Both the position numbers and the translations under genes were made by a program. Of a stretch of 64,000 nucleotides of DNA, positions 35,457 through 51,170 are shown piece after piece; the stretch's first letter is position 1; each line of letters opens with the position of its first letter. The DNA lies in NCBI GenBank assembly GCA_963402885.1, contig OY727098.1:20942717-21006716 (forward strand), given 5' to 3'. Under the pieces are notes generated by a model, which was not told where the DNA came from, ran no database searches, and saw only the letters and a list, made by a program, of their open reading frames with translations. This stretch comes from Antedon bifida (lineage: Eukaryota > Echinodermata > Crinoidea > Comatulida > Antedonidae).

Positions 35457-38400
35457 TTAGACAAAACTGAGAAGTTCCACATCAAAGACCAACGTTGAGG
35501 ATGGTGGAATAGTGTGTAGCAGTTAAGGAAAATAATGTTTTCAACATTTTATCTAGCTACAAAATAAAAAAGTACTACAGTACTTAAACAATAATCATAA
35601 AATATAATTTATTATAAATAAGGAGTTAAACTAAAGTGTGGTTCCCACTAGCGACGCAATGCAAGGACGTAGACACAAGCGAGTTGACCAATCACAAGCG
35701 ACTGTTTGAATAATCCATCGATTGTGATTGGTCTACTCGCTTGCTTGCTAGTAGGAACCAAGGTCAAGGGAACATTTTCTTTTAAACATTTTAAATAGCA
35801 CTTCTGATCAATATAAATCGCCATAGCGGTTCATTACTGTAGGTTTGCCTACATGTGAATTATTGACATTCAGTAGTTGACTAGCATAATAGACCATGAT
35901 TTATTCCAATATCCAGAATAACATTTGAAACTGGGCCAAACATAGTGGTGGAATTGCAATTGAATAATATTTTAGGCATTCAAATATAATTTATATTATT
36001 ACCGAGTTTTGTACCCCTTAAAGGACAACTTGACCGAGGACCATATTTTTACAACATATTAGGGATGTACATATGATTTCAGAACAATTGCGAGATTAAA
36101 GATATCGCCGCACAGCCGTAAATTGCTGTGACGTCACAGGTGCATTGCAAAATCTACTTAATGAGTCCAGATAAGCAAAAGAAACAATAAAAAAGTCAAT
36201 ATTTATATTTTTTTACGATTTATTTACAAAGTGCGATGCACCTGTGACGTTACATCGATTGATGGCGACGGCGAGCACGTGCGGCGATATCTTAAATTTT
36301 TTGCGATGGTTCTGAAAGCATATGTACATCCCTAATACCTTGTTAAAATATGGTCCTCGGTCAAGTTGTCCTTTAACAAGATGCCAATCGACAAACTATT
36401 GTTACGTACAATACAAGCATGCTCATCTTAACATTTCAAATAGACAAATTTGATTTCATCAAAGCAGAAGCGGACACTCACAGACTTATAGGCTAAAACA
36501 TTGGCTGGTACTGGTAGTAGCAATTCATGTTTTGTCATGGGAAAACAATTAATTTCTTTATAATTATTAATAGGTAAAATGTCATCACTTATCCACTTCT
36601 TTAAGCATTACAAAATAACATGTTTGTCAGTGGGTTTTTTTGTGTGAAAAGGGTGAGTCAAATGGCCGAGCGATTAAGGCAGGGGCGCCATTTACCATAC
36701 CTAAAGAGCCAACAACATCGGCAAGGGTTCGAGGCCGACTCGCTTCTAGTTATGGTGGTGGAACAAGTCTTCTCGGATAAGGACTATAAACCGTAGGTCC
36801 AGTGTACACAGTTATAACCTGTGTTCACTTTAAAGAACCCAGTTCATTATTCAAGAAGTGTAGGAGTTACCCCGATGAACTGGTTCACAAAATAGCCCCT
36901 GTATCAGGGGGATTACCACCTATCTGATAGGACAGTGATTAATTTACCATTGGTAACCCTTATTATTATTATATGAATTATTAAAAATAAAATAACTAAT
37001 TGAATTTAAAGGATATACACCAGGATAACCTTTGCTTCCGTATGCAAAATCAGGAGGACAGGTGAGCTCTGCTCTTTCTCCTTTACTCATCTGAAATAAA
37101 CAATAAATAAAATGTTAACAATGTTACAAACATACAGATATATGTTGGGCTTATTGCTGTATTGCACAACATCACAACATAAAGCTCTGTCTACACTATC
37201 AAACTAGTTTGACAAAAAAAGATGTGATGTGCCAAAATATGGTACAGTGAAATGACAATATCATGTCCATATATGGGCACATCACATTTTTTTGTCACAT
37301 AAAGTTTGATTGTGTAAACATAGCAATTTTAGAATTTGAATTATTAAAACATTTGATTACAGTACAGTATGAATTCTCTTTATTTTGACTGATGATGTAG
37401 TTTTTTTTAACCACTAAATACTCAAATATCTATAGGCTTTGAATTAACAGGCAAATTAGGTGGTAGTACAGGCTGGCCTGGCAGCATCAGAAATCATGAA
37501 TAATTCATTACCTTAATTATTTTCTATTATAAAGATTGCAAGATAGCTGATCTACTTCCTAAATATACTAAACCTAACCCTCTAAATAATCTCTCTCAAC
37601 TATTTAAAACAAATCATGTTCTTGATAGATCTCGAACTGAGGGCTCCAGTGTTAAACTCAAAGGAAAAAAAATAATGCGGCCTGGCAGTGAAAGTGTTTA
37701 CACACTGACTGTACATATAAACAAATACTGTATAACAATTTACTTAGTTTACTTAATAAGATAGTTTATACTGTATTAGCCCTCATACAATATTCAAAAT
37801 CTCATTTCCATGTTGGCCCACCCGTGGTTAGATGACGTAGTGCAGACTTTCAGCTTATTGGTATGGCCCCATTCATGGGGAGCAGTAAGTGATCACATCT
37901 GCAGAGTATTTTAGTTTTTACACTTGTAACATTATCAACATTAATGATTGTAATTCTTCTCTATTAAAATTATGAGATAAATACAAAAAAAAGATGAATG
38001 AAGAACATCTCCATTGGACCAACAAGAAATTACAGTCAAATCTAATTGGACTGGAATAAAAATGTTGAAGTTTATCCGAACTTCAACATGACAAATTTGT
38101 AAAAACAATGCTCTGTAATAGGCCTAATACACAGTACTGCTCTCCCCATAAACACGGAATGACTCATGCTGAGCATTTAATTGAGTTGATTAAATTCTAG
38201 GCTTTGATTTTAATGCTAATATGTACTGTATTGTATACGAATTAGGCAAATAAAATAGATTTCATTTTTATGCTTCTGTCTACTTATAGGGAAGCAAAAC
38301 GCAGACAACAATACACCACCAGATTGAGAGAGAACTGATATTTTTCCATACTATCACCTCTCTCAGTTTGTTATCCGTATCATTTTCATCTACATTTTGA

Positions 38401-40188
38401 GTTTGTTGGAAATCAGACTTATACCAAAACTACTAAAGAATGTGTATACTGTACTGTATAGTATTAGTCTAAGTTACACAGAATGTATAGGTATAGTAAT
38501 TTCATAAAAATTGGTCGACATACAGTAGGTGGAGTCAACTGTAATTTTGTAAACTGTTATTAAAGCAAGATAATACAAAAAACAACCTTAGCAACGCCGA
38601 CGTCCCATCCTTTTATGACTTGACCTGCTCCTAATTTAAATTTGAAGGGCTTGCCACGATCACGAGATGAATCAAACTTTGTTCCATCTGTCAAAGTTCC
38701 TAAAATACAGTAAAAGGTACACAAACAATTGTAAACTATACATTGAAAAAAAATGTCAACTGATGCTACTGTATAAAAGAAAAAGCAACCCAAAGATAAG
38801 GTTACTGGCTCCATCAAATGCAAGGGTTTATGCATTTATGCAAAGTTGATTATCTCAGTATTTTATATTGTACTAACCCTAATAGAATTTTGGTATGGAA
38901 TCACTGTGCCCTACTACTACTACTACTACTACTACTAAGGTATTTATTTACCATTTTGGAAATACTGTAGTAGTGTACAATGATAATCTACAGGATCCAA
39001 ATATTTTGGAAGTATTCTGAAAGAATTGAACCGATGGGAAAGGAATTACATAACTAGCAAACAACTGACTCAATGCTTTATAATGTTCCTGTATTGATTA
39101 ATATGTACATACCTGTATAATGAACTTCTACTGTTTGGCCATTCTTAGGAAAATTGCAACCTAAAAATAAAAGACAAAATGTTATGAATATCATGCTAAC
39201 TACATGAATTGGGCTGAACAATGTAAAAATACTATACGGAAAGGAAATATGCGACTGTTCTTTCTTAGGAAACTTAATAAATTTGGAGTGGACAAGTCAA
39301 TATTAAATTTGTTCTAATCATCAGTGGTTGAAAGTGTAATTGCGTTCCGCTGTGTTGTACGGTATGAAAAATGTAAAGAAGAAGAAATGTGGACTAATCA
39401 CAGACATGAATTATTCGCTGAAGGAAATATGTCATAAATGTATTAAATCTAAAACCACTAATATTCAGAAAGACGCAAAACACCTGCTATAGTAATTATC
39501 ATAAAATGCGCTTCGAGAGAAATGATCTGTATAGATCTATTAGATTAGAACCGAGAGATATAAAAGATCCTTTGTTCCTTACTTGATCAGGTTGTACAAT
39601 GGACGGCCGGCATTAAATAAAATCGATGAAAGAAAAACCTGGACCAATTTTGGCAGTGGGGACTGCTTTTGACCACAAATTTAGGCCCTGGATCATATTT
39701 GTCGTGGATGTCCTTTTTTATTATATTGAAGTTCGTCGAAAGGTCTACTAGCCTAGTAGGGCCGCCTAGTAGAGTACTAGCTAGCCTAGGCTGAGGCTAA
39801 TATTAATAATACTAATAGTTCGACCGTAATCCATAATAAATAATACTAATATAGCAAAACAAGGCCTCTATCTACTCTACAGTAGCTAGGCCTACGCATA
39901 ATCATAATTTGCTCCCTAAAATGGGCGTCCTTTCTCTCCTCTAGCTAGCTAGATCTAGGCCTACTACGGTTACTACTACTACTCTAGAGTCTAGACCTAC
40001 CTAGGCGGTAGGGATGGTAGGCCTAGCTAGAGGCCTAGGCCTAGCCTCTAGGCTAGGCCTAGAAAGTAGTAGGAGAAGAGTATCATTATTATTACCTTTT
40101 TTTTCTAAATTCCAATTCATTATAGTAGGCCTAGGCATAATTACTTACCATCACCAGGAGTCAAAATATTAATGCCTACGTCTGACAT
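35457..40188 (-). CDS. FKBP1A: FKBP12-type peptidyl-prolyl isomerase
   Basis: A small cytosolic peptidyl-prolyl cis-trans isomerase, the FK506/rapamycin-binding protein that in animals also associates with ryanodine receptors and TGF-beta type I receptors. Exons: 40149-40188, 39113-39160, 38587-38699, 37017-37090 and 35457-35511, total 330 nt, 109 residues plus stop (human FKBP12 has 108). Start [14 protein letters not shown]. Active-site residues are present: [13 protein letters not shown], the QVIKGWDVG loop with the pocket Trp, [10 protein letters not shown], and a terminal strand [10 protein letters not shown]. The last intron (35512-37016) has no usable GT-AG limits; it starts with ATATCCTTT and ends TACACAC, so I call it a minor-class AT-AC intron (see findings). 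Joining there restores GYPGVIPP, as in FKBP12. The exon 3 donor (AAG/GTTGTT) is weak. GC-rich sequence just upstream is the likely promoter. Confidence 0.95.
35638..35760. mobile_element. Small foldback element, GGTTCCCACTAG ends
   Basis: GGTTCCCACTAGCGA and TTGCTAGTAGGAACC are inverted; the inner AGCGAGTTGACCAATCACAA pairs with TTGTGATTGGTCTACTCGCT. A possible diverged relative is at 33498-33622 (GTTTCCACAGTAGGACC ... GTGGGAACCAAGC). Confidence 0.6.
36018..36376. mobile_element. Foldback (MITE) with TTAA target duplication, copy 1
   Basis: A 351-bp element at 36022-36372 starts AGGACAACTTGACC and ends GGTCAAGTTGTCCT, flanked on both sides by TTAA (36018-36021 and 36373-36376). The inverted arms extend inward (ATTAGGGATGTACATATG against CATATGTACATCCCTAAT; TGCACCTGTGACGT). 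TTAA duplication and the lack of an ORF suggest a non-autonomous piggyBac-type element. It sits in the FKBP1A AT-AC intron. Confidence 0.85.
36655..36974 (+). repeat. tRNA-derived SINE (Leu/Ser-like head), copy in FKBP1A intron 4
   Basis: The head contains an A box (TGGCCGAGCGATTAAGGC) and B box (GGTTCGAGG), and the first bases GAGTC pair with GACTC after the B box. A body follows with GGTGGTGGAACAAGTCTTC and AAAGAACCCAGTTCATTATT, ending in a TTATTATTATTA tail. It is almost identical over most of its length to 53113-53405, implying recent activity. Confidence 0.8.
37181..37324. mobile_element. Foldback MITE, AAGCTCTGTCTACACTATC family, FKBP1A intron 3
   Basis: Starts AAGCTCTGTCTACACTATC and ends GATTGTGTAAACATAGC. 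The inner GATGTGATGTGCC pairs with GGGCACATCACAT. Other copies: 14331-14424, 14486-14594, 51616-51763, 51763-51914 and 57931-58034. Confidence 0.7.
38912..38938. repeat. (CTA)n microsatellite in FKBP1A intron 2
   Basis: About nine CTA units in a row. Confidence 0.9.
39740..40140. repeat. CTAGGCCTAG-rich block in FKBP1A intron 1
   Basis: Many AGGCCTA, CTAGGCCTAG, CTAGCTAG and TACTACTA units directly after exon 1, a composition unlike most of the window. A similar block is at 56820-57140 just after exon 1 of TFIIS. Confidence 0.7.
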
Positions 40189-41630: not shown

Positions 41631-42879
41631 TAAACAGCTGACGTATAGTCTATTTCTACATGTTTCATTACGTAATTCGTCGTGGCGTCTTAAATATGCA
41701 TATGTATGAACGAGTCGAATCCCTAGCTGGCTTTCCATGGTGGAATAAAGTTAAATCTATGCGAGCTACTGTGTTTGGGGTTCACAGAATATATACCTTT
41801 CCACCACATCATAAGGCGGCAACATGTATCTGATGCTGTGGAAACGACCCCAAGGCCGTGGCAGGCCCTTAGAGCTGAGGCAGAGAGAGCATATACCATA
41901 ACATCTTTTTTTTCTTCTGTGACTTACGCCACCTCCTTCGTTCTCGTAAATTTTATACTTAGCGCTTTAAAATAGAATTTTGCAAAGTATAGTAATTGCT
42001 TTTTATGTTTTTTTCGCGTTTACAATTTTCAAGTGTAGATGTGTGTATATTGAAATGATGTTCCGCATTATTATAGATAGATGAAGATGTTAGTTGGATG
42101 TAATGATCTTGTATATCAAATAGATTGTCATGCGATAAATTGGTTAATCCATGTAGTTTTGGTTAATCCATATTATTTTATACATATTTTTAATAATTGT
42201 TATAATTATAATATTAATAAAAATGATATTTGTTAGTATAAATTTCATAACATAAAACTATAGATATAAAGAAGAAAAGCAAAGAGATTATGGAGCGGGC
42301 TATTCCTGAATATACAATAGTAAGTATGGTAAGTTAAATTGATAAATGTTAGCGATCTTGTCAAAGGTCAAGCGCCTATAGCCTGGTGACGTTTCGATAT
42401 TCAATATTATTCTACGTTCATTAATTACAGTATTATAAATGGTCATCATGTGTTCTTTCTCATAATTTACACAACTTATGGATATGTTTAGTTTTTAAGC
42501 TTGAATGTAGATTTATCGTTGGTGATAGTATAAAATGTATAAACATTATATGGGAATATACACAGGTGAATGGAAACAAAGGTGGTATTGATAATTCATA
42601 GCTCTAATCAGATACCATACACTCGCTCGACATAGATAGATGTCCTAAATTGATACACGCTTGTTAAATTTACTTTATTTTGCTAATAGCATTACGTGTA
42701 CTAAAAAATGAGAACGACAAGCTGCAGTTATTGCGCAATATCAATATTCTCAAACTTCATGCCATTAGTTCTTTCTCAACAATGTTCCTTTATGCCTCTT
42801 TAAATTCTATTTTACTACAGTACAGACTTTTGTATATTCCTTTCACCTGAGATTTTTCAAGCCCATTTTCCATAAAGGA

Positions 42880-43067
42880 TTGAACTGTAGAAGACATACC
42901 TTCTCGCAACGAGTAATAAACCATTGGAACAGTTTACCAGCCGACGTTGTCAATTCTGAGACCACTAACACCTTCAAGAATCGCATCGACACAATGTAGT
43001 TGATATGGGGTTAAAAGGCACATCGCCTAAACTTTCCCATTATAACTAAACTAAACTAAACTAATAA
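42880..43067 (+). mobile_element. 3' end of a CR1-like non-LTR retrotransposon
   Basis: The frame ending at the stop 42997-42999 reads RRHTFSQRVINHWNSLPADV then a stretch ending TFKNRIDTM, the typical C-terminus of CR1/L2-type reverse transcriptase ORFs. It is followed by a short 3' UTR and an (AACTAAACTA)n tail typical of such elements. The rest of the element is missing. Confidence 0.75.
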
Positions 43068-46590: not shown

Positions 46591-46668
46591 TTGTAATTAC
46601 TAAATAATATTTAGTAGACCTAATTACAATAGGTGCTATTAACCAAGTGTAGACCTATATTATAGAAA

Positions 46669-51170
<4,502 letters not shown>

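Follow-up and report, generated by a model that had tools for sequence, protein, structure and literature searches.

A probable U12-type AT-AC intron ahead of the last strand of FKBP12 in Antedon bifida

Is the coding sequence for the last strand of FKBP12 at this locus split by an AT-AC intron that the minor spliceosome would remove, and does any other FKBP gene carry an intron at the same site? The window analysed here is the whole stretch of 64,000 nt (C11:20942717-21006716), and the genome searched comprises 315.6 Mb in 27 contigs. It is proposed, with a probability of about 0.95, that intron 4 of the FKBP12 gene belongs to the AT-AC subtype of U12-type introns and that the minor spliceosome removes it. 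This assignment, made earlier in the original prediction, is now backed by the signals of the intron, a paralog, the minor-spliceosome snRNA genes of the genome and a control intron in PHB2.

The gene occupies window positions 40188-35457 on the minus strand, with five exons encoding a product of 109 residues:

40149..40188, minus strand: exon 1, coding part from the ATG, 40 nt, followed by GTAAGT
39113..39160, minus strand: exon 2, 48 nt, preceded by AG and followed by GTATGT
38587..38699, minus strand: exon 3, 113 nt, preceded by AG and followed by GTTGTT
37017..37090, minus strand: exon 4, 74 nt, preceded by AG and ending mid-codon in ..GGTGT
35457..35511, minus strand: terminal coding exon 5, 18 residues and the stop codon

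Introns 1-3 have GT-AG ends and phases 1, 1 and 0, all five exons are intact, and the spliced coding sequence is in frame. The product consists of a single FKBP_C domain (PF00254, 133.4 bits in Pfam), and its length of 109 residues compares with an expected length of about 108. Over residues 4-107 the product aligns gaplessly with the solved chain 7dki_A, in which the residues GVIPP of the exon 4-exon 5 junction are likewise found, and FKBP1A chains match the same residues over equal lengths, as judged by match ranges. By its domain and these chain matches, the predicted product is an FKBP12 (FKBP1) protein. The earlier claim that joining GT to T restores a Val and the full 109-residue protein is thereby borne out by the in-frame coding sequence and the gapless alignment. 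Human FKBP1A has four coding exons, so it may be without an equivalent of intron 4; no other claim made here draws on this.

Intron 4 and its signals, the latter called by exact match to the consensus sequences RTATCCTTT and TTCCTTRAY, are as follows:

35512..37016, minus strand: FKBP12 intron 4, AT-AC, putatively U12-type, 1505 nt, phase 2
37008..37016, minus strand: U12-type 5' splice site ATATCCTTT, 9 of 9 positions matching RTATCCTTT
35522..35530, minus strand: U12-type branch site TTCCTTAAC, 9 of 9 positions matching TTCCTTRAY
35523, minus strand: putative branch A of intron 4, 11 nt from its last base
35512..35513, minus strand: 3' splice site AC, its last base 11 nt past the putative branch A

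The intron starts with ATATCCTTT and terminates with TTCCTTAACTGCTACACAC. Exon 4 ends in GGTGT, after which the sequence runs ATATCCTTTAAA, and exon 5 opens with TATTCCACC directly after TTCCTTAACTGCTACACAC, so that GT from exon 4 and T from exon 5 together make Val92. With AT-AC or GT-AG taken as the termini of U12-type introns, intron 4 has AT-AC. The intron boundaries, motifs and junction of the original prediction proved exact to the base, and the 5' site, branch site and 11-nt spacing that it had read as the minor-spliceosome signature were recovered with both motifs perfect.

How often such motifs occur near a given pair of intron ends was counted over both strands of the window. Of 127,860 positions, 21 have an exact RTATCCTTT no more than 3 nt away and 33 have an exact TTCCTTRAY 6-16 nt upstream, the true intron 4 sites being included in both counts. 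The product of these frequencies gives a chance of about 4e-8 for both motifs at the ends of intron 4, and theirs is the sole exact pairing of a 5' site with a branch site within 10 kb in the window. When the junction was slid from -3 to +3 bases the frame was preserved every time, and AT-AC ends occurred at the reported junction only. A slide of -2 gives GT-AC ends and changes Val to Thr; a slide of +1 gives TA-CT ends and leaves the protein unchanged, so it is the motifs, and not protein conservation alone, that fix the AT-AC ends. None of 116 AG-ended joins restored the FKBP C-terminus; these combined two 5' sites with the 58 AG sites present in the terminal exon and in intron 4 from its 21st base onward.

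A second complete FKBP12-type gene lies on the minus strand of C7 (7007453-7002854). Its protein is identical to that of the window gene at 75 of 108 aligned residues (69%), and the two genes share the four intron phases 1, 1, 0 and 2. The last intron of the C7 gene is likewise AT-AC (1724 nt; exon junction C7:7004633/7002908; boundaries GATGT/ATATCCTTTTCT...TTCCTTAACTTTTCACAC/TATACC) and falls at the same codon and phase as intron 4, while the bodies of the two introns do not align (best blastn match E = 0.026). On the simplest reading of these sequences, the AT-AC intron that both genes have at one and the same codon and phase would predate the duplication of FKBP12, and the splice signals would have been kept while the rest of the intron diverged between the copies. 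Both genes belong to one genome, so presence of the intron in any other species is not implied. A protein query run exon by exon gave 11 genome matches, among them no third gene of comparable similarity; terminal exons of 55 nt go unlisted in this search, and a gene could be missed.

The remaining FKBP-family genes of the genome have the same FKBP_C domain as the window FKBP12. FKBP_C matches 13 exons of the genome, nine of them from the window gene and six other genes; the C-terminal site was read in these six, the FKBP12-type copy on C7 included, and the other four matches are at C11:3.13 Mb, C1:4.56 Mb, C12:14218454 and C7:253374. None of the five non-FKBP12-type genes read has an intron at the codon of intron 4. 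The genes on C8 (FKBP15-like by our own reading) and at C7:31.7 Mb (FKBP6-like, likewise by our reading) run uninterrupted through the site. In the C14 gene, which we take to be FKBP2-like, an apparent GT exon end lies a few codons downstream of it, and in the C9 and C12 genes the exon seems to end a few codons upstream of it. The original prediction had left open whether FKBP genes elsewhere carry an intron at this site; a partial answer is that the other FKBP12-type gene of this genome does, and that these five family members not of FKBP12 type do not.

By its snRNA genes, the genome has a minor spliceosome. All four minor snRNA families were found above the Rfam gathering score:

C9: U6atac, 136.6 bits (Rfam)
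C13: U12, 124.2 bits (Rfam)
C15: U4atac, 96.9 bits (Rfam)
C10:10010369-10010497 and C13:13162309-13162439: U11, two genes, 88.6 and 85.6 bits (Rfam)

The same four families gave no match in 14 control genomes. The U12 snRNA of this genome carries the complement of TTCCTTAC, which is the branch site minus the branch A; U6atac complements TCCTTT of the intron 4 5' site, and U11 complements CCTTT of the same site. U11 is represented by two matches of similar score, the other minor snRNAs by one match each.

PHB2, the sole control gene tried, has in this genome an AT-AC intron of 545 nt and phase 0 (C7:28593655-28594199) with the boundaries ATG/ATATCCTTTCTA...AACCTTAACACTGATTTTTAC/CTGGGC. Its junction joins to MLGEA, as in the human PHB2 protein. 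The branch site of this intron, AACCTTAAC, departs from the consensus at two positions, so the control differs from FKBP12 intron 4 in gene, phase, length and an imperfect branch site. An AT-AC U12-type intron is listed for the fly and human PHB2 orthologs in PMC2831892, and is of the same class and subtype as FKBP12 intron 4; the PHB2 intron here is likened to those of fly and human at the level of the gene, not of the codon at which it falls. A PHB1-like gene on C1, scanned with loose patterns, gave one 5'-site-like match and no branch-site match.

Three other accounts of the locus were weighed. A GT-AG splice could begin two bases upstream, at GGT/GTATAT, and run to an AG near 35557, which would yield an alternative FKBP12 with a different tail. 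The frame of such a join is open and adds 24 residues after GYPG, but the join destroys the last FKBP strand, a conserved coding exon lies beyond that AG, and the same AT-AC boundary also closes exon 4 of the second gene. GGT/GTATAT is moreover a poor site against the U2 5' consensus MAG/GTRAGT. We regard this as most unlikely to be the main splice, and the join could occur only as a minor isoform. It is scarcely credible that the window gene is a decayed copy with accidental motifs and that the working FKBP12 lies elsewhere: a second FKBP12-type gene does exist, but it has the same kind of intron in the same place, and the window gene itself has five intact exons in frame, an FKBP_C domain of 133.4 bits and motifs with a chance of 4e-8.

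The AT-AC intron might also be removed by the major (U2) spliceosome, as has been reported for a sodium-channel intron. AT-AC ends are not in themselves proof of U12 dependence, and SCN4A intron 21 requires the major spliceosome according to PMC2831892. The AT-AC U2-type introns of sodium channels, however, all have G at +5 according to PMC2831892, whereas intron 4 has C at +5 and combines a perfect U12 5' site with a perfect U12 branch site; U2-dependent removal is accordingly very improbable. The reading we prefer is that intron 4 is U12-type and depends on the minor spliceosome.

For this U12-type intron, U11 and U12, acting as a di-snRNP, would pair with the 5' site and the branch site respectively, and U6atac would then take the place of U11 at TCCTTT. 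As branch point, the adenosine at 35523 would attack the first A of the intron, and exon 4 would be joined to T-ATT-CCA with Val92 made across the junction. We infer from the sequence that intron 4 is spliced, by which machine, and that A35523 is the branch point. In conceptual translation, retention of the intron leads to a stop 23 residues after Val92, with a 24-residue tail after GYPG. Retention would lose the last strand, so both FKBP12-type genes found would need minor splicing.

Intron 4 shares with the known U12-type AT-AC class the 5' site, the branch site, the 11-nt spacing, the terminal AC and phase 2; its signals are like those of the class, and the host gene FKBP12 alone differs. 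AT-AC introns account for 26% of the U12-type introns of human, 25% of those of mouse and 47% of those of Drosophila, and for 8-47% across the animals in Table 2 of PMC7367187 that possess U12-type introns. The original description of AT-AC introns as rare even within a rare class was thus overstated.

No report joining FKBP12 or FKBP1A with an AT-AC, U12-type or minor intron was found in the titles, abstracts and main-text passages of the open literature searched, and searches on gene structure likewise yielded nothing useful. The word FKBP occurs zero times in the main texts of PMC10639083, PMC7367187, PMC2831892, PMC2846911 and PMC2426677. The portions seen of PMC545797 and PMC10351895 do not mention an intron in an FKBP gene, those of PMC1501061 and PMC3488318 hold nothing on an AT-AC intron in FKBP12, and the titles and opening lines of the abstracts of PMC11136669, PMC6359015, PMC8384624 and PMC12851022 hold nothing on an FKBP intron. 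Intron 4 is a real example of a known intron class in a gene for which no such report was found. A parallel comes from Phytophthora, in which 'peptidyl-prolyl isomerase' genes are reported to have an AT-AC intron (Russell et al. 2006, cited in PMC2846911). The host gene of that U12 AT-AC intron has the same enzyme activity as FKBP12, and the passages of PMC2846911 that cite it do not state whether the isomerase is an FKBP or a cyclophilin, or where the intron lies. In viral contigs a peptide pattern matched 8 stretches, none of which was confirmed, and the pattern of exon 4 with the 5' site had no match; in genome contigs the latter pattern matched 4 bacterial stretches, about the number expected by chance on a hand reckoning.

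A bolder proposal, which we consider doubtful, is that intron 4 is very old and common to distant eukaryotes, perhaps being the very intron of the Phytophthora isomerase, that it was lost elsewhere, and that all FKBP12 here depends on the minor spliceosome. If so, the response to rapamycin and FK506 in this animal would depend on the minor spliceosome, as would the control that FKBP12 exerts on its receptors. The assignment of intron 4 would place FKBP12, a well-studied protein, among those whose genes probably rely on the minor spliceosome in one animal or more. Two diverged copies of an AT-AC intron in one genome offer a natural test of which parts persist, and, if the site proves common to other phyla, it would mark intron loss in the FKBP12 genes that are without it. 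For the study of intron evolution, intron 4 is moderately useful.

Several further features were noted in passing. Within intron 4, window positions 36018-36376 carry two arms of 74 nt that are 92% complementary and 211 nt apart, with nested arms at 36115-36149/36232-36266 and 36095-36113/36279-36297; the arrangement resembles that of a MITE or a hairpin element of another kind. A second hairpin of the intron, at 35676-35743, has arms of 26 nt, 92% complementary and 16 nt apart. Adjoining FKBP12 on the plus strand are exons of an alpha-amylase-like gene (window 46666-48184): positions 47867-48180 match Pfam Alpha-amylase with E 0.00049 and 19.9 bits, below the cut-off of 22, and the stretch at 46666 has, by our own reading, a signal-peptide-like start and no family match. 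An open frame of 76 aa on the plus strand at window 42769-42999 (containing RVINHWNSLPADVVNS) has no Pfam match, and we take it to resemble the end of non-LTR retrotransposon reverse transcriptases. Elsewhere in the genome, mitochondrial COX1 (C27:10587-11927) reads with genetic code 9, which is named for echinoderms and flatworms: it has six in-frame TGA codons and four AGR codons, and each of its four AAA codons aligns with an Asn of 7o37_a, the solved chain that matches it best.
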